This document shows positions 24,281 to 41,061 of a stretch of DNA of 51,592 nucleotides, one piece after another. The first letter of the stretch is position 1; each line of letters begins with the position of its first letter. Both the position numbers and the translations under genes were made by a program. The stretch is from Gammaproteobacteria bacterium (GTDB taxonomy: Bacteria > Pseudomonadota > Gammaproteobacteria > UWMA-0217): positions 1-51,592 of the forward strand of contig JALSHZ010000107.1 in NCBI GenBank assembly GCA_026981985.1, read 5' to 3'. The notes under the pieces are model-generated. The model searched no databases. It was not told the DNA's origin and saw nothing but the letters and a program-made list of their open reading frames with translations.

Positions 24281-24508
24281 ACCACTATATCTAGCGCTTA
24301 GCTGTCGAGAATCCGCAACCTGTGGCGGGTTCTTGGCTGCATCCCAAAGTTTCATAAAATTGGTGATAATTCACTTTCTCTTTTATTATCAATGCCTTGC
24401 GCTTTAGATCTAAAAGCCTGGTGACTTCTGGCCGCTATATCCCTGTTTTGCGTCAAAGATTTTGTGCTAGATTACGCATATCTGAAACTGGTTTTGGGGT
24501 TCGTCGAC

Positions 24509-27388
24509 ATGAAACATTGGGTAAAGATTTCCGTATTGCTGTTCTCCAGTCAGCTTGCATTGATGGGGCAGCTCATGGCCGCCGAGGATGGCGCTGCCGC
24601 AACGCCAGCAGATGGCGCGGGTGATGCAGCGGCCGCACCCGCGGTGCCGGCAGCAGACCCGGCAGCGGCTGGTGATGCTGCGGCTCCCGTGGATGCTTGT
24701 CCAGATGACAAGGCAGCGTTGGTGGCGTTATACGACAACCTGGGTGGTGAAAATTGGAAAAAAGGTGGTCCCACCGATAACGATATCAACCTCCGTTGGG
24801 TCACGGGGCCTAATCACTGCGATTGGTTCGGCATTGAATGTGATGCCTCGGGTAAGGTCATTTCTGTCGATTTGAACGCCAACAAGCTCAAGGGAGCGAT
24901 GCCTGAGGCGCTGGGAGATCTTGGTTGTCTGACAACCTTGAACCTCGATGACAACAGCATTGGCGGCGAGATCCCTGCTGCAGTCACTAAGTTGACTGCA
25001 CTTGAACGGTTGTCGCTGGATGCCAACAAGATTCAGGGCGATATCCCCTCCGGCCTCGCGGACATGACAAAGCTGACAAGCATCGATCTAGACTACAATG
25101 CATTGCATGTAGCTAACGACGCGGCGGCGGGCGTCGCAACGTCGCTTGAACAGAAGCACGGCAGCAACTTCCTCGAAACCCAGACGCTGGACGCGCAAAA
25201 CGTCAAAGTTGTCGCGCGTACCCGTACTTCCCTGACCCTCGAATGGGATCAGGTGACTTTCACGCCGGAAGGTGGGTATCGCATCTATATCTCTGATAGC
25301 TACGATGGCCCATTTACGCATCATGCAGCCATCAGTGGTACCGGTGTTGATACCGCCAAGGGAGAAGTCGTCGGCAAGGCGAACACCACTGCCGTTGTCG
25401 AAGGTCTGGAGCCGGGCAAGAAGTATTACTTCGTCGTTCATAGTTTTACCAATCCGCATGACGACAACCGCAATGAGGTGGAGAGCGACGGTCAGACTGG
25501 CACGCCGGCGCTTGGTATCACTGACAGCGACGATTCCGATCTCGATGGGCTGAAGAATGCGGAGGAAGCTGCGATTGGGACTGATCCGAACAACCCGGAT
25601 TCCGATCGTGACGGCATCTTCGACCGTCAGGAGGCAGATCCGCTGAATCCTGCGAACACAGACAAGGATGCGCTAATTGACGCACTGGATCCGGACGATG
25701 ACAACGACAACGTCCCCACCCGTCAGGAAGTGATTATTCCGGAAGATCCGGGTCAGAGTGCAACCTTCAAGGATACGGATGGCGACAAGACGCCCGATCA
25801 TCTCGATGCCGATGACGATGGCGATGGTGTGCCAACAAAAATTGAGACCACCAACGCGGCAGGTGATGTGGATCTGGCGCTTGACACCGACGGTGATGGC
25901 ACCCCCAACTACCTCGATACCGATGACGATGGCGATGGCATCTCCACCTTTGATGAGACCAATGGTGGCAAGGACATCAACAAGGATTCTGATGATGATG
26001 GCATCCCGGACTATCTCGACAACAAGAACGACAAGGTCGCCGTACTGGAAGACACGGCGGATCTGGTCGACACATCTATTGGTGGCGGCTCGATGAGTCT
26101 GGGTATCGCTGCTGCTGGTCTGCTTGGTGTGTTGCGGCGCCGGCGTCGTCTTGCCATCACTGCGGCTGCCATCACGCCACTGCTCATGCTCAGTGGTATG
26201 GCTGGGGCTGATGAGAAGGCCGTCGACGAAGCCAAGGCAGCAGCCCAGCAAGAGCTGGACAAGGCCAAGGCCAAGGGCAAGGTTGAAAAGAAAGCATCCG
26301 GAGCGACTGCGGCAAAAAAGCCTGGTCTCAAGGATGAGAAAATCGATTTCAAGGTAACGCAAGCGCAGCCTGAACGTGGTGGTCGTATCTACCTGGGTCT
26401 TGGTGCCGGTCTCACGACCTTGCAGCCCGAACCGAAGACGCCAGGGGTTACGGTCAGTGATGACAACAGTACTGGATACAAATTCCTGTTCGGCTACGAA
26501 GCTACAGACCATTTGGCGATCGAGGCCATGGTCGGCGCATTGGGTGAAGCGACATTGTCGCCTAGCGATAAGACGGTCGACTACAAGGTCGGTTCGTTGT
26601 TTGCACTGTACAACTTGTTTGATTACCGGGTCGGCTTGAATCCGATCGTCAAGGTCGGTGTCTCGTCGATCCAGAACAGCAGCGACACTGGTATCGACTT
26701 GAACGAGATCGATGACACGACGCTATCGGCAGGTGTTGGTTTGGAATATGAATTCGGCAATGGTTTCGTGATTCGTGGTGAATACGAGTACTACTCCGAG
26801 GATGCACAAATGGCATCCATCAATGTGCTCAAGCGCATGGGCGGTGAAGCGCCCATCGTCATTCCTGCGCCGGCGCCTGAACCGGTCGTCGTGCCGCCCC
26901 CCGCACCTGCGGTCATTCCTGCGCCCAGTGTCAAGGTCGAATTCAAGATCCCTGATACAGATGGTGATGGTGTCAACGATATCCGCGATGCTTGTCCGAA
27001 TACACCAGCTGGCGCTGAGGTTGATGAAGTGGGTTGCGCCAAGTTCCAAGGCGTACTCAAAGGCGTCAATTTTGAATACAACTCTTCGCGATTGACGCCG
27101 CGTGCGCGGGCAATTCTTGAAGAAGTCGCCGCCGAGCTGAAGAACTATCCGAACGTGAAAGTTCAGGTTGAGGCGCACACCGACAGCAAGGGTTCCTCAG
27201 GATACAATCTGTGGCTGTCAAAAGCGCGTGCGCAGAGCGTCATCGATTTTCTCGTGTCACGTGGCATCTCCGCCCGGCGTTTGATTCCGATTGGCTTTGG
27301 TGAAACCAAGCCAATCGCTTCGAATAAGACCGATGCTGGTCGCGCATTGAACCGGCGGGTCGAGTTCAAGGTGCTGTCACCGCGGTAA
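24509..27388 (+). CDS. LRR/TSP3 surface protein fused to OmpA-type barrel, internal sorting-signal junction
   Basis: 959 residues from the ATG at 24509 (MKHWVKISVLLF, a good signal peptide ending near LMAA-ED). Domains: Ala/Pro-rich linker (about 27-62); plant-type leucine-rich repeats with N-cap (65-205; NWKKGG, CDWFGIEC, LNLDDNSIGGEIP); fibronectin III (231-330); calcium-binding thrombospondin-3 repeats (339-507). Then GGGSMSLGIAAAGLLGVL and RRRRR at 525-547, which looks like a GlyGly-CTERM sorting tail, yet translation continues into a second signal-peptide-like segment (548-567, possible cleavage AGA-DE), an Ala/Lys linker, an eight-strand-like OmpA barrel (about 625-790), one TSP3 motif (DTDGDGVNDIRDACPN) and an OmpA C-terminal peptidoglycan-binding domain (about 846-959). 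Each domain call is good; the processing of the junction is inferred. Confidence 0.85.
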   Translation: MKHWVKISVLLFSSQLALMGQLMAAEDGAAATPADGAGDAAAAPAVPAADPAAAGDAAAPVDACPDDKAALVALYDNLGGENWKKGGPTDNDINLRWVTGPNHCDWFGIECDASGKVISVDLNANKLKGAMPEALGDLGCLTTLNLDDNSIGGEIPAAVTKLTALERLSLDANKIQGDIPSGLADMTKLTSIDLDYNALHVANDAAAGVATSLEQKHGSNFLETQTLDAQNVKVVARTRTSLTLEWDQVTFTPEGGYRIYISDSYDGPFTHHAAISGTGVDTAKGEVVGKANTTAVVEGLEPGKKYYFVVHSFTNPHDDNRNEVESDGQTGTPALGITDSDDSDLDGLKNAEEAAIGTDPNNPDSDRDGIFDRQEADPLNPANTDKDALIDALDPDDDNDNVPTRQEVIIPEDPGQSATFKDTDGDKTPDHLDADDDGDGVPTKIETTNAAGDVDLALDTDGDGTPNYLDTDDDGDGISTFDETNGGKDINKDSDDDGIPDYLDNKNDKVAVLEDTADLVDTSIGGGSMSLGIAAAGLLGVLRRRRRLAITAAAITPLLMLSGMAGADEKAVDEAKAAAQQELDKAKAKGKVEKKASGATAAKKPGLKDEKIDFKVTQAQPERGGRIYLGLGAGLTTLQPEPKTPGVTVSDDNSTGYKFLFGYEATDHLAIEAMVGALGEATLSPSDKTVDYKVGSLFALYNLFDYRVGLNPIVKVGVSSIQNSSDTGIDLNEIDDTTLSAGVGLEYEFGNGFVIRGEYEYYSEDAQMASINVLKRMGGEAPIVIPAPAPEPVVVPPPAPAVIPAPSVKVEFKIPDTDGDGVNDIRDACPNTPAGAEVDEVGCAKFQGVLKGVNFEYNSSRLTPRARAILEEVAAELKNYPNVKVQVEAHTDSKGSSGYNLWLSKARAQSVIDFLVSRGISARRLIPIGFGETKPIASNKTDAGRALNRRVEFKVLSPR

Positions 27389-31511: not shown

Positions 31512-34500
31512 ATGGCGAATCAATCGTCTTCCAGCGCATATATTACCGATGGGTCTGGAGCCAAATCCATTTTCAAGGGAAGAATCCCCGCACTCGCGTT
31601 GGTGCTGGCGGGGGTTGTCTATGCGGGCCAAGGCCTGGCCGCTGGCTGTCCTGCAAATACAGTGCCTGATGGCAAGAATCTCATCGTCAATGGCAATTTC
31701 TTCAATCAGCCTGCAGGGCCTTATCCCATTCCAGCAAAAACTGATCTTGGTGGCTGGGAAGCGGATGTGCCTTTCAATGGGATTGGCTATGCGCCGGATA
31801 CCACGGTCACGATCGTAGTCGGCGAGCTTGATGACGGCGGGCCTATCTCCCAGATCCCTTTTCCGGGCGATGCGGATAACAACGTACCAGCGACGCCAAC
31901 ATGGCTTTACTCCAATGGTAACGACAAGGCCACCTCCCGCGTGATCTGGCGGCAGACGGTTACGGGGCTCACGCCAGGCAAGGACTATGTGTTCTACGGC
32001 TATTACAGCAATGTCATCAGTCCTGAGACGACGGACCCCTATGTGGAACCGATCATGAATTTCGGGGTGGATGGCGAGAGTATCGGCACGATTACCGCAC
32101 TCAATCACAGCAACTTGCTGTCCGGTGATGGCGGCGAGGATGTCTGGAAGCGTTTCGAATTCAAGATTACGCCGACCAAGGATTCGGCAGTGCTGACCAT
32201 TGCTGATGATGTCGTCAACGAAATTGGTGGTGACGACCTGGCGATTACGGCAATTGGCATCGAATCCTGTAAAACAACACTCGCTGGCCCTGATATTTCC
32301 GCAGACAAGACCAGCCTGATATTCACTGGTGTCGTCGCGGCCACCAGCGAGCCGCAGGTTATTACCGTGACCAATGAGGGTGAGTTGGATTTGAATATCA
32401 CCAAGGTGGCACTGGCGGGCTTGAACCCCGCGGACTACGCGATCAGCAAGAACAGCTGCACCGCTGCTGTGGCGCCAAAAGGGACTTGCACGATCGAAGT
32501 TGTTTTCAAGCCGACGGTGATTGGCAGCCGCGTGGCTGAAGTGCAGGTTTCATCGAATGATGCTGACACCCCGGTGCTGAAAGTTCCGCTGGCGGGCACG
32601 GCTACGGCGATACCGCTGGGCAGTGTCGATGTGGAGCCTGTTGCGGTGGTTTTCCCGACGACTGAAGCGGGTAAGAGCAGTAAAGCCGAGACGATCACCG
32701 TAACTAATACCGGGGCGGCAGATATCACCATCAACGATGTGGTGCTTGCGCCAACCGATGCAGAATTCACCATGGATGCCACGGCCTGCGCCAAGGGTAC
32801 CACGCTGAAGCCAAAAGCCAGTTGTGATATCACGGTTACCTTCGAGCCGACCAGTGCCGGGTCGAAGAGTGCTACGGTAACTGTGGCTTCGGATGACAAG
32901 GACAAGCCTGCTGTCAATGTGGCGCTGACGGGGCTTGCGACACCTTCCGCGACGGCCGATATCGCGTTCCCTGACAAAGATCTTCTGGCCAAAGGCATGT
33001 CTTTTGGCGAGCTGCTTGTTCAGACGACCAGCAAGCCGCAGACCTTCAAGATCAAGAATGCCGGTGGCGCGCCGCTGACGATCAGCGACATCAGTGTCTC
33101 GGATCCGCAGTTCAAGGCCGATACCACCGACTGTCTGGCGACACCGGTTGCAGCCGGCGAGGAATGTGAGGTTGAAGTGACCTTCTCACCGACGAAGGTG
33201 GGCCCGCAAACAGCGATTCTGAGCATTGTCTCCAATGATGTCGACGAGAGCCCGGTACCCGTACTGCTGACAGGAACTGGCCTGACCGATGACAAGGACA
33301 GCGATGGTGACGGCCTGACGGATGAAACCGAGGCACGCATGTGTACGGATCCGAACAACCCGGATACCGATGCCGATGGCCTGCCCGATGGCATCGAGGA
33401 CGAAAACAAGAATGGCCGCGTCGATCGCGATGTCAGCGGTGCTTTCCTGGAGACAGATCCTTGTGTCAAGGATACGGATGGCGACGGCATCATCGACGGT
33501 GTCGAGGACGCGGATCATGACGGCAAGGTGCTCAAAGATGGCGCTGCGTTCAAGGAGACTGATCCGCGGATCGTCGACACCGACGGTGACGGCCTGACAG
33601 ACGGCATCGAGGATGCCAACAAGAATGGCGTCTACGACAAGCCTGCCGAGACCGACCCGCGCGTTGTCGATACCGATGGTGATGGCATCAGCGATGGTAT
33701 TGAGGACGTCAATCGCAATGGCGTCATCGATGCTGGCGAAACCGACCCACGGGTACCGAATAAAACCGAAGTGCTCGGTGAAACCGAAACGGCTGCTGGC
33801 CCGGTACTGACCGACCTGGAAGGTGGTGTCGGTGGTGGCGCTGCTGGCTTGCCTCTGCTCAGTCTACTGGGTGCGGGCATGCTGTTTCGTCGCAGAAAGG
33901 TAGCCGCCGCAGTGGCGGCTACCGTCGCCGGTGCTGCGTTGATCGCAGCACCCGTGCAGGCGAAGGAAGGGCAGTTCTACCTCGGTCTCGGTGTCGGTCA
34001 GTCTTATATCGAGCCTGACCCCGATACCAACAACACGGGCTACAACGTCGATGAGGACACAGACTTCGGTGGCAAGATCTTCCTTGGCTATGATCTGACC
34101 GATTTCTGGTCGATCGAAGGCTTCTATGCCGATCTTGGCGCATCCGAACTGAGCCATGCGACGAAGGCGGATGGGGAGATCGATTACAAGGCCTATGGCC
34201 TGGAGACTCTGCTCCACCTGCCCAACACCAAGCCGGGCTTTTCCGGTTTTCTGAAGCTGGGTCTGGGCAAGATGAAGACTGATAGTGATACGATCCCGTT
34301 TGAGGATCTTGAGAACGGCCAGTTGTTCGGTGGTGTCGGTCTCGAATATCAATTCGAGTCAACGGTGTCGCTGCGAGGTGAATATCAATACTTCGATGAA
34401 GATGCCCAGCTGATCACGCTGAACGTGCTCAAGCGTTTTGGTGGCGAAAAGCCCGTGCCTGTCGTCGTGGAGCCGGTCGATACCGATGGTGACGGAGTCA

Positions 34501-35168
34501 TCGACGAAAAGGATAAATGCCCCGGCACGCCAGCGGGCACCCGCGTGGATGTCACCGGCTGTGCAATCGACAGCGATAACGATGGTATCGTCGATTCCCG
34601 CGACAAGTGTCCGAATACGCCGGAAGGTGTTCGCGTTGACGCAACGGGCTGTCAGTTCGTCGTCGAAGTGGCGATCGATTCTGACTCCGACGGCGTGATC
34701 GATGAGCACGACAAGTGCCCGGATACGCTGCAAGGCATCAAGGTCGATTCGAACGGTTGTCCGTTCGTGACTCAAGAAGTCATCGACCAGTTCACTGGCG
34801 TGCTCGAAGGGGTGAACTTCCACACCAATTCAGCCCGTCTCACCGGCGAAGCGATGAGCATTCTCAATGGTGTCGCGCATCAGCTTGCTGAGCATCCAGA
34901 GGTCAACGTGATCATTGTTGGCCACACGGACAGCATTGGCCCGGCGGATCGTAACCGCGCTCTGTCGCTAGAGCGAGCCAAGTCGGTGGCACGTTATCTC
35001 GTCAGCCGCGGTATCGAGCGCAGCCGTCTGAAGTACGCCGGCAAGGGCGAAGATGAGCCCATCGCCTCCAACGCGACTGCGGCAGGACGCGCGAAGAACC
35101 GCCGCGTTGAGTTCATTGTTGAACATGATGGATATGACGGTGGTTACGGCGCTTCCAATCGTTACTGA
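31512..35168 (+). CDS. Choice-of-anchor-D/TSP3 surface protein fused to OmpA-type barrel, internal sorting-signal junction
   Basis: 1218 residues, with GAGGAG ahead of the ATG. A long N-region leads to a signal sequence (IPALALVLAGVVYAGQGLAA, 25-44). Then a DUF642/carbohydrate-binding-like domain (45-258; NLIVNGNFFNQPAG), three choice-of-anchor-D/ASH-type Ig repeats (about 261-365, 372-475, 482-590; each ends CxxxVTFxP...), and TSP3 calcium repeats (593-755). At 771-796 comes GGVGGGAAGLPLLSLLGAGM plus LFRRRK, a GlyGly-CTERM-like tail, followed directly by a second signal-like segment (797-817; LIAAPVQA, cleavage before KEG), an OmpA barrel (820-975), three TSP3 motifs (986-1083) and an OmpA C-terminal domain (about 1090-1210; NFHTNSARL, GHTDSIG, NRRVEF). 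An in-frame ATG (33879, M790) just before RRRK could also start a separate OmpA protein. Confidence 0.85.
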   Translation: MANQSSSSAYITDGSGAKSIFKGRIPALALVLAGVVYAGQGLAAGCPANTVPDGKNLIVNGNFFNQPAGPYPIPAKTDLGGWEADVPFNGIGYAPDTTVTIVVGELDDGGPISQIPFPGDADNNVPATPTWLYSNGNDKATSRVIWRQTVTGLTPGKDYVFYGYYSNVISPETTDPYVEPIMNFGVDGESIGTITALNHSNLLSGDGGEDVWKRFEFKITPTKDSAVLTIADDVVNEIGGDDLAITAIGIESCKTTLAGPDISADKTSLIFTGVVAATSEPQVITVTNEGELDLNITKVALAGLNPADYAISKNSCTAAVAPKGTCTIEVVFKPTVIGSRVAEVQVSSNDADTPVLKVPLAGTATAIPLGSVDVEPVAVVFPTTEAGKSSKAETITVTNTGAADITINDVVLAPTDAEFTMDATACAKGTTLKPKASCDITVTFEPTSAGSKSATVTVASDDKDKPAVNVALTGLATPSATADIAFPDKDLLAKGMSFGELLVQTTSKPQTFKIKNAGGAPLTISDISVSDPQFKADTTDCLATPVAAGEECEVEVTFSPTKVGPQTAILSIVSNDVDESPVPVLLTGTGLTDDKDSDGDGLTDETEARMCTDPNNPDTDADGLPDGIEDENKNGRVDRDVSGAFLETDPCVKDTDGDGIIDGVEDADHDGKVLKDGAAFKETDPRIVDTDGDGLTDGIEDANKNGVYDKPAETDPRVVDTDGDGISDGIEDVNRNGVIDAGETDPRVPNKTEVLGETETAAGPVLTDLEGGVGGGAAGLPLLSLLGAGMLFRRRKVAAAVAATVAGAALIAAPVQAKEGQFYLGLGVGQSYIEPDPDTNNTGYNVDEDTDFGGKIFLGYDLTDFWSIEGFYADLGASELSHATKADGEIDYKAYGLETLLHLPNTKPGFSGFLKLGLGKMKTDSDTIPFEDLENGQLFGGVGLEYQFESTVSLRGEYQYFDEDAQLITLNVLKRFGGEKPVPVVVEPVDTDGDGVIDEKDKCPGTPAGTRVDVTGCAIDSDNDGIVDSRDKCPNTPEGVRVDATGCQFVVEVAIDSDSDGVIDEHDKCPDTLQGIKVDSNGCPFVTQEVIDQFTGVLEGVNFHTNSARLTGEAMSILNGVAHQLAEHPEVNVIIVGHTDSIGPADRNRALSLERAKSVARYLVSRGIERSRLKYAGKGEDEPIASNATAAGRAKNRRVEFIVEHDGYDGGYGASNRY

Positions 35169-38515: not shown

Positions 38516-39598
38516 TTATTCTTCCTTGATCTCGAACTCGACCCGCCGATTCAATTGGCGGCCTGCCGCTGTCGTGTTGTCGGCGATCGGATGCTGCTTG
38601 CCATGGCTTATGCGCTCCAGACGCTGTGCGTTGATACCCCGGTCGATGAGGGCGTTGGCTGCGGCGTTGGCCCGTTTCAGGCCGAGTGCCTGATTGTAGC
38701 GTTCTGAGCCTTCTGCATCGGTATGTCCGTGGACGCGCAGTTCGATATCCTGGTGTGCCTTGAGTTCGGCGGCGACGTGATCGAGTTTCTGCTCAGCAGC
38801 AGCTGAGAGTTCATATCGGTCGAACTCGAACAGGATGGTCGGCAATGTTAGGCTGGTTGTGGGCGCCGGCGGTGGCTCGGGTGTGAGCGGCGGCATTGTG
38901 GGGGTGACCGCTGCAACGGGTGCTGGTGCCTTGCTTGTGCGTGGTGTATGCGAACGTCCGAACCGCTTGATCAGGCCGATCGAAAACGCTTTGGCATCCT
39001 CGTCGAAAGAGATGAACTCGATACGCGCGGCAAAACCATTCGACCAGCCGTATTCCAGGCCGGCACCAAGATGCAGATCCCAGTCCTTGCGTTGGCGATG
39101 GATGATATTGGCGGAGGAGGTATCGAGCTTGCCGATGCCGATGCGACCAAAGAATGACAGGCCTTCGCGTCGATAGTAGCCCTCGTCATCAGGATAGCCG
39201 GGATAGTCGCTGCCAGAGCGGGAGTTGAACAGATAGCCAATCGCGCTGACCCCACCGTACTTGTAGTCGATTTCTCCCGCGTGACTCCGGGAGGTCTCGT
39301 CAGCAATACCTGCCTCGCCGAGCCTCGAGTAGAAACCCTCGACGCTCAGTCGTTTGCTGAGATCGAACCCGAGTGTGAGCGTCGCCCCGGTGCTACTGTC
39401 ATCGTCCTGGATGAACCCGGTATCACGTGTGTCGGGTTCGAGTGTCGACGCAGAGAGACCGCCGCCAAGATAGAGCCGCTGAGGGAAATCTCTGGCTGCC
39501 GCCATCTCGGCAGCCAGCAGCGGTGTAGCAATACTGGCTGCAATGCAGCTGGACAGCACCAGTCTTTGCAAGCAGGGTTTATGGTGGCGAATGTTCAT
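38516..39598 (-). CDS. OmpA-family outer-membrane protein (unfused paralogue)
   Basis: 360 residues. Signal peptide of about 30 residues (LVLSSCIAASIATPLLAA-E). An OmpA-like barrel (about 37-210) shares the pattern YLGxGxxxxxLEP, SVEGFYSRLGEA, GEIDYKYGG and GAGLEYGW...FDEDA...LIKRFGR with the two large fusions, so the three barrels are paralogues. Pro-rich linker (about 215-250), no TSP3 repeats, and an OmpA C-terminal domain (FEFDRYELSAAAEQKL; GHTDAEGSERYNQALGLKRA; NRRVEFEI) that binds peptidoglycan. Its ATG overlaps the stop of the upstream gene (ATGA), so translation is probably coupled. Confidence 0.92.
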   Translation of the reverse strand: MNIRHHKPCLQRLVLSSCIAASIATPLLAAEMAAARDFPQRLYLGGGLSASTLEPDTRDTGFIQDDDSSTGATLTLGFDLSKRLSVEGFYSRLGEAGIADETSRSHAGEIDYKYGGVSAIGYLFNSRSGSDYPGYPDDEGYYRREGLSFFGRIGIGKLDTSSANIIHRQRKDWDLHLGAGLEYGWSNGFAARIEFISFDEDAKAFSIGLIKRFGRSHTPRTSKAPAPVAAVTPTMPPLTPEPPPAPTTSLTLPTILFEFDRYELSAAAEQKLDHVAAELKAHQDIELRVHGHTDAEGSERYNQALGLKRANAAANALIDRGINAQRLERISHGKQHPIADNTTAAGRQLNRRVEFEIKEE

Positions 39599-41061
39599 TG
39601 CTGCGCCCTCGTTGCCAGGCGGTGTCGGCGCAGACCGACAAGCGCCAATGGGGCCAGCAGCCAGCCCAGGCTCCCTGCACCATGTCCTTGCAGTCCGGTT
39701 TCGATCAGCCGCTGAGCCGACCCGGTATCGGCGAGTACGGCAGTTGGTGTCGGTGTTGATGCGGGTATTCTGGTTCCTGGCAGTGGTGTCACGGTGATCT
39801 GGATACGTGCTTCGCTGCTACCACCATTGCCGTCGCTGATTTGGTAGATCAGGAAGTCGTCGCCGCTGAAACCGGTATCGGAGGTGTATCTGATCACCTC
39901 GCCAATGACCGTAGCGGTACCATGCGCTGGCGGCTTGCTAATGGTCAGCTGCAGCGGATCGTTTTCGGGATCGCTGTCGTTGCTCAGTGGCGCGATGTCG
40001 ACAGGCTCACCCGTGTTGGCAGTGGCGTTGTCCGGTTGCGCAAGCGGTGGCTGGTTGATGGGCGCCAATTGCAGATTGCCGCCGGTGCCCAAATGGAAAT
40101 CTGCATCATCGATGTCATTGTGCGAGCTGGTGTCGCGGGGGAATGTTTCCGGGGCGGTCAGATCGTGCTGATCTGGATCGATGTCTTTCGCGAATGCCGA
40201 AATGCCATAGTATTTTTGTCCGGGTGCAATGCCGAGGTCGAGCAGTGAAACGAATGCAAAGCCGAGTGCTTCCGGTTGTGAGCTGCGTGCGACCATGAAT
40301 CCGTTGGGTGACTTGCTGCTATTGGAAAGAAAGTCGTTCAGGGTGTAGATGTTGGTGATGCCGTACTGAACCTTCGTGGTGTCGGCATAGCCGCTTTCGT
40401 GGATCCGGACGAGTGGGCCATACGCGTCCGGTTGGCCATCGGCGCCCAGCGACAGTATTGCGGCGATCTGGATCGGGTTGTTACCGCTTTTTTCCAGCAC
40501 GGTGTGTCCAGCGAGCGCCAGTTCGCTGGAGGGTGCGATGATTCCCTGGCTATAGATCAGGTCGACGCGCTCGATATTCTTGTGTGAATAGCGCCATGGG
40601 CCGGCGTTGGTGAACACGTCGAGCGCACCAATATTGGCGACATTGCCGGCAATGATCTCCGCCAGTGGGCAGTCTCCAGGGGTGCCCGGCAGCGTGGCCT
40701 GGTATTGCCGGGCTGTGCCAGCCGTTTCCGCATAGATAGCGCAGGGCTCTCCAGTGGCATTGGGATTATCGATGCGGACGATCTGAACTCGATCAGGCTG
40801 AATGGGGTTGTACGCAAGCGTTTGATCCTGGTAGACGAATGATTCGATCTTGAGATCGACACCCAGACCCCAGCGATAGCTGCTGTCGTCGACAATATAG
40901 CTTGAAGGGACTGCTGGCACCGAGGTGGTATTGACGAGAGAAACCTCTCCGCGTGCCATTGCGCTGCCTACCGGTGCGGCTGTGGCTGCCACGAGAATTA
41001 GTGTCCGCAGTATTTTGCCGTATCGGTGCTGTTTCAACGGAGGCGTGTACGAATTGTTCAT
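39595..41061 (-). CDS. Exported cadherin-like/Big-type surface protein with GlyGly-CTERM-like tail
   Basis: 488 residues with a signal peptide (LRTLILVAATAAPVGSAMA-RG). Residues about 35-325 are an unassigned beta-rich domain (ESFVYQDQTLAYNPIQPDRVQ; WRYSHKNIERVDLIYSQGII). Residues about 338-425 are an Ig/cadherin-like repeat (PPLAQPDNATANTGEPVDI ... DDFLIYQISDGNGGSSEA). The C-terminus GAGSLGWLLAPLALVGLRRHR followed by eight residues has the Gly-rich/hydrophobic/Arg arrangement of GlyGly-CTERM sorting signals, which are cleaved by rhombosortase in known systems. The next gene, overlapping by 4 bp, encodes the OmpA partner. Confidence 0.8.
   Translation of the reverse strand: MNNSYTPPLKQHRYGKILRTLILVAATAAPVGSAMARGEVSLVNTTSVPAVPSSYIVDDSSYRWGLGVDLKIESFVYQDQTLAYNPIQPDRVQIVRIDNPNATGEPCAIYAETAGTARQYQATLPGTPGDCPLAEIIAGNVANIGALDVFTNAGPWRYSHKNIERVDLIYSQGIIAPSSELALAGHTVLEKSGNNPIQIAAILSLGADGQPDAYGPLVRIHESGYADTTKVQYGITNIYTLNDFLSNSSKSPNGFMVARSSQPEALGFAFVSLLDLGIAPGQKYYGISAFAKDIDPDQHDLTAPETFPRDTSSHNDIDDADFHLGTGGNLQLAPINQPPLAQPDNATANTGEPVDIAPLSNDSDPENDPLQLTISKPPAHGTATVIGEVIRYTSDTGFSGDDFLIYQISDGNGGSSEARIQITVTPLPGTRIPASTPTPTAVLADTGSAQRLIETGLQGHGAGSLGWLLAPLALVGLRRHRLATRAQQ

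Follow-up and report, generated by a model that had tools for sequence, protein, structure and literature searches.

A tagged front protein and an OmpA-type barrel encoded as split or fused genes in Gammaproteobacteria: a module resembling TraA/TraB in outline

In Myxococcus, the open reading frames of traA and traB share four bases (PMC3325183). TraA is a surface protein with a sorting tag; its adhesin function requires TraB, which is predicted to form a barrel and has an OmpA domain (PMC6626042). MXAN_5598 of Myxococcus xanthus is a fused adhesin-tag-barrel-OmpA protein, and its authors suggest that it arose by gene fusion and is processed internally (PMC11980579). The GlyGly-CTERM tag of Vibrio VesB is cut by rhombosortase, after which the protein reaches the surface via type II secretion (PMC6219818). 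In the JDVT-CTERM/MrtJ system, MrtJ and its target form a conserved two-gene neighbourhood (PMC11980579).

The window analysed here, a stretch of 51,592 nucleotides, is contig C107 of a gammaproteobacterial assembly of 3.35 Mb (149 contigs, 98% complete). A gene for a tagged protein, termed the front, is followed on the reverse strand by a gene for an outer-membrane barrel with an OmpA domain. The first-pass annotation had described this pair as the split version of an architecture that is fused at 24464-27388 and 31512-35168, and our comparison bears this out; the coordinates, lengths, strand and ATGA overlap that it gave for the pair were exact. The pair has the following features.

41061-39595, minus strand: front gene, encoding a tagged, putative surface protein of 488 aa (ORF call; dN/dS)
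40066-40956, minus strand: N-terminal domain of the front, about 300 aa, with two invariant cysteines, also present in fused relatives
39793-40056, minus strand: Ig-like domain of the front (Big_9, PF17963; 73.7 bits)
39685-39699, minus strand: TGLQG motif of the front, directly before the tag
39619-39684, minus strand: GlyGly-CTERM-like tag, consisting of glycine motif, hydrophobic helix and basic end
39606-39610, minus strand: GAGGG, Shine-Dalgarno-like, 7 nt upstream of the barrel ATG
39595-39598, minus strand: ATGA stop/start overlap of the front and barrel genes
39598-38516, minus strand: barrel gene, 360 aa including a signal peptide of its own (about residues 1-30)
38957-39478, minus strand: 8-stranded outer-membrane barrel domain (PF13505, AlphaFold2 model, family model)
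38546-38833, minus strand: OmpA peptidoglycan-binding domain (PF00691)

Both genes are under purifying selection, with dN/dS values against a congener of 0.23 for the front and 0.19 for the barrel, ratios that are rough at a dS of about 1.4. Matches to PF00691 (79.6 bits) and PF13505 (46.0 bits) place the barrel protein in the OmpA family; it scored 205.7 bits against the family barrel model, and its AlphaFold2 model has eight long strands (mean pLDDT 75). The front begins with a signal peptide. Its domain of about 300 aa had no Pfam match, nothing by phmmer against PDB sequences and nothing in a PHROGs scan. The AlphaFold2 model of this domain, built from six sequences, had a mean pLDDT of 61.9, and its Foldseek matches had low TM-scores and were for the most part to Ig/cadherin-like regions; no fold is claimed. 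The same domain also lies inside the fused ORFs L083, L085, L078, L068 and L131. With its two invariant cysteines and its occurrence in 13 of 369 genomes, the region at 40066-40956 (minus strand) is a candidate for a new family of surface domains.

By itself the overlap is weak evidence: of the 19 same-strand neighbours in the window, two other pairs also share 4 nt. Orthologous pairs keep ATGA in both genomes of the same genus and are separated by gaps of 12 and 44 nt in two other genera. The earlier suggestion that the genes are selected for coupled translation is thus not supported, since adjacency is conserved and overlap is not. Across the family, about 14 of 33 split pairs overlap by NTGA, the start being ATG, GTG or TTG, and the remainder show other spacings; most overlapping barrel starts have their own Shine-Dalgarno-like sequence.

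The barrel model (A2) was searched against a class sample of 369 genomes and a phylum-wide sample of 398. The family was present in 39 of the 369 genomes of the class, and the phylum-wide search returned one match outside the window genome, from the same class. Named relatives bearing orthologues were gammaproteobacterial MAGs (Thiotrichales, Sedimenticola, Granulosicoccaceae). In the fetched loci, front and barrel formed a split pair with a tagged front in 33 cases and were fused into one ORF in 29; a further 16 barrels had no tagged gene beside them. L019 and L064 were included in the split class by eye, and L086 and L156 were removed by hand, their supposed fronts reading as lysyl-tRNA-synthetase-like tails. 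Split pairs are common in other genomes, in accord with the first-pass reading.

A search of the same 369 genomes with the front domain gave 19 strong copies. Because the barrel is fused or directly downstream in 15 of them, pairing of front and barrel exceeds chance; the remaining four copies end in GG tails but lack a barrel alongside. Front and barrel distances were also correlated (Mantel r 0.76, 0 of 5000 permutations, 15 loci). The first-pass statement that the two parts stay together is upheld by both results. One barrel type nevertheless serves fronts whose domains differ widely (LRR, choice-of-anchor, Ig and unassigned), so no specific binding interface between the two is evident from their sequences, the TGLxG motif apart.

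The tail of the window front, GHGAGSLGWLLAPLALVGLRRHRLATRAQQ, has the evident tripartite tag anatomy. It matched TIGR03501 with 17.9 bits in a six-frame genome search (cut-off 15.5) and with 13.5 bits, under the cut-off, in a whole-protein scan. The GlyGly-CTERM-like tail named in the first-pass annotation was thus recovered by the former search but not by the latter, and it runs seven residues beyond the stretch quoted there. We regard the model match as borderline and the tag as credible because the same genome encodes one rhombosortase (TIGR03902, 144.1 bits, cut-off 84, G000:C51). The genome also encodes GspD (TIGR02517, 589.6 bits, cut-off 351), the single marker by which type II secretion was judged. 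Of the 39 barrel-bearing genomes, 38 have rhombosortase above the cut-off, versus 88 of the 330 that lack the barrel (Fisher's test, p = 8e-19, uncorrected for relatedness, the genomes not being phylogenetically independent).

A strict T-[GD]-[LIV]-x-G pattern occurred in 38 of 59 front tails versus 3% of background 70-mers, and several further tails contain near variants. T-G-[LIV]-x-G directly precedes both tag types found in the family, GlyGly and JDVT, and lies mostly N-terminal to the stretches covered by the tag-model matches. Conserved beside two different tags, the motif is a candidate docking or recognition site.

Among the relatives, some fronts carry JDVT-CTERM tags (46, 35, 33 and 29 bits; cut-off 27). 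In 10 loci the same strand carries a MrtJ gene 0.6-1.1 kb past the barrel domain, and the JDVT-type loci have the order front, barrel/OmpA, MrtJ (L129, L133, L141, L144, L084, L126 and further contigs). The window genome encodes no MrtJ, and the window front did not match NF033191. Since JDVT fronts and MrtJ share its loci, the pair accompanies whichever sorting enzyme is in use.

The two fused paralogues of the window and their junctions are arranged as follows.

31512-35168, plus strand: fused paralogue A, 1218 aa, with choice-of-anchor/TSP3 front, tag, putative internal signal peptide, barrel and OmpA domain
33822-33962, plus strand: junction of fused A, with GG tag helix, RRRK and second hydrophobic segment with a PVQA end
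24464-27388, plus strand: fused paralogue B, 974 aa, with LRR/Fn3/TSP3 front, tag, putative internal signal peptide, barrel and OmpA domain
26081-26209, plus strand: junction of fused B, with GG tag helix, RRRRR and second hydrophobic segment with a MAGA end

The order at a fused junction is glycine motif, hydrophobic helix, basic residues, second hydrophobic segment and an A-x-A-like site; the junction of fused A reads GGVGGGAAGLPLLSLLGAGMLFRRRKVAAAVAATVAGAALIAAPVQA. This pattern, a hairpin followed by an A-x-A-like site, was present in 28 of 29 fused ORFs versus 22 of 674 control windows from the same ORFs. The second hydrophobic segment with its A-x-A-like site has the make-up of an internal signal peptide, and the junctions are more than plain read-throughs. 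The positive-inside rule predicts a hairpin in which the tag helix runs out-to-in and the signal peptide in-to-out. From this topology, two cuts and two mature proteins are predicted, as with the split genes. Internal initiation at the junctions was considered and judged unlikely: in-frame candidate starts were inconsistent across copies, with no clear Shine-Dalgarno sequence, and the fused copy on C31 has TTG/GTG as its sole start codons at the junction.

Further copies occur elsewhere in the window genome, fused on C31 and C101 and split on C81 (GTGA), C36 (ATGA) and C127 (ATGA). The front tail on C36 (L019:1780-1905) looks frameshifted, a neighbouring frame giving RLRRKRRHTSTRFIRK, the expected basic end; for this reason, the ATGA overlap at C36 may be secondary or an assembly error. 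The OmpA domain of the C81 barrel (L023:2114-3115) reads GYAASGKDE where most copies have GHTD, and this barrel may have lost peptidoglycan binding. The C127 locus (L091:3307-7000) has a long front, a 1008-aa open frame with a GlyGly-type tail, in ATGA overlap with a barrel that lacks the OmpA domain. Tagged fronts without an adjacent barrel are found at L017:289-1629 (C134), L177, L178 and L179; the barrels that serve these four may be encoded at other loci.

The barrel tree, which has 79 rows, several long branches and a bootstrap that had not fully settled, requires at least 13 changes between fused and split forms. The window split barrel groups with barrels of G001, from the same genus, and of G002 and G003, from two other genera, in a clade that is all split (97/97). 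The barrel of fused A falls in a six-row clade that is all fused (98/89), and that of fused B in another clade. A single origin of all fused forms was rejected (p-AU 0.002), as was a grouping of the three window lineages with one another (p-AU 0.012, for a group chosen after the tree was seen). The three window barrels, expected earlier to be close relatives, are thus members of different clades. Nor does the tree support the first-pass proposal that the window pair is the ancestor or breakdown product of the fused forms beside it; as an immediate ancestor or relic of them, it is rejected.

The same annotation held that removal of one stop codon would yield the fused form. The window barrel ORF lies in a different frame from the front ORF, so loss of the stop codon alone cannot fuse the pair; an indel is also needed, and fusion by stop loss is rejected for the window. 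The one-stop arrangement exists in some relatives only, e.g., the G003 orthologue in L075, where front and barrel are in the same frame, separated by TAG and a 12-nt gap. Closely related copies document the switch itself. G205 (fused) and G078 (split), from one genus, have sister barrels (100/100), and a 26-nt indel separates their junctions; the extra 26 nt in the split copy hold the stop and shift the frame. L085 (fused) versus L138 (split, ATGA) is a second within-genus case, with homologous fronts. We propose that split and fused forms are interchangeable gene arrangements of one module.

We lean, with slightly better than even confidence, towards reading the window pair as a two-part cell-surface display device that exists in split and fused forms, the fused product being a polyprotein cut into the same two proteins. 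The front would be exported by Sec, with its GlyGly-CTERM helix holding it in the inner membrane until rhombosortase cuts it; it would then pass through type II secretion and be anchored at the cell surface. The barrel would be seated in the outer membrane, bind peptidoglycan through its OmpA domain, and dock or stabilise the front, a role like that of TraB towards TraA. When the genes are fused, tag helix and internal signal peptide would form a hairpin in the inner membrane. The sorting protease would cut one side of it and signal peptidase I the other, to release the same two proteins. We infer both cuts, the surface location and the physical binding of the partners, together with a role in adhesion or recognition; by analogy, the pair would comprise an adhesin- or receptor-like surface protein and a peptidoglycan-anchored barrel partner. 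Points that count against this reading are the borderline tag score, the diversity of fronts on one barrel type, the four tagged fronts and 16 barrels that stand without the other part, and the shared ancestry behind the co-occurrence with rhombosortase.

The barrel might instead be a dedicated export or assembly factor that helps the front across or into the outer membrane and then leaves. Pairing in cis, co-divergence and MrtJ-containing operons would suit any step of the pathway, and the 2012 TraAB paper allowed for TraB aiding the localisation of TraA (PMC3325183). However, an 8-stranded barrel has no pore large enough, its OmpA domain speaks for a static anchor, and the genome already has the type II secretion protein GspD; we consider this role unlikely. 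That fused ORFs stay uncut as single envelope-spanning proteins, with rhombosortase processing the split form only, is a rather improbable reading. Their internal cleavage is deduced from sequence, and a text search of the recent GlyGly-CTERM paper gave no internal-tag case, but 28 of the 29 fused ORFs have a complete two-helix cut-site anatomy that would be superfluous in an uncut protein, and the same front and barrel families also occur split.

An ordinary operon of two envelope genes, in which overlap and fusions reflect genome compaction and no shared function, would fit the 4-nt overlaps common in the window and the existence of orphan barrels and solo fronts. It does not fit the barrel's presence at 15 of 19 front-domain genes and the Mantel correlation of 0.76, the at least 13 switches that retain both parts and the internal signal peptide, or the pairing with two different sorting systems. 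This explanation is already disfavoured, and we give it very little weight. The display device remains our preferred reading. Its extension, that the module is a gammaproteobacterial counterpart of TraAB that alternates between two overlapping genes and a cut polyprotein, with the GlyGly or JDVT tag following the sorting enzyme, is offered tentatively, at a little under even confidence.

The nearest known systems are traAB and MXAN_5598 of Myxococcus. The window pair shares with TraA/TraB the four-base overlap and the gene order, tagged protein first and barrel/OmpA second; it differs in that Myxococcus uses MYXO-CTERM and myxosortase, whereas the window genome has GlyGly-CTERM and rhombosortase. 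The window front matched Ig/cadherin-like and GlyGly models only, with no PA14 or TraA cysteine-repeat match, and the TraB model NF033763 gave 60.7 bits on the window barrel, over C-terminal residues 268-358 only, against a cut-off of 700. For lack of these TraB-model and TraA-domain matches, we do not file the pair as TraAB, though by analogy its general mode of action would resemble that of TraAB.

The GlyGly-CTERM/rhombosortase system typified by VesB (PMC3237569, PMC6219818) has in common with the window genome the tripartite tag, rhombosortase and GspD; a text search of these two papers gave no OmpA partner, operon or fusion of such kind. The JDVT-CTERM/MrtJ system agrees with relatives of the window pair in placing tag and MrtJ gene at one locus. 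It was described as two genes, whereas the relatives place the barrel between target and protease, an arrangement with no mention in PMC11980579. The barrel is a candidate third component of C-terminal sorting because it co-occurs with the sorting enzyme and sits inside the MrtJ loci of relatives.

MXAN_5598, like the fused ORFs here, combines adhesin, internal sorting tag, outer-membrane barrel and OmpA domain in one ORF; it is one MYXO-CTERM case, whereas in the present family 29 ORFs are fused, their tags are of GlyGly or JDVT type, and split and fused forms have switched repeatedly. Natural split and fused counterparts, in one case between congeners just 26 nt apart at the junction, make the processing of internal tags in bacteria directly testable. 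By analogy with these systems, the window pair is most likely a TraA/TraB-like device in which a tagged surface protein is coupled with a barrel bound to peptidoglycan. This suggests that TraA/TraB, known from social myxobacteria, exemplifies a wider design whereby proteins sorted to the surface have a peptidoglycan-bound barrel of their own.
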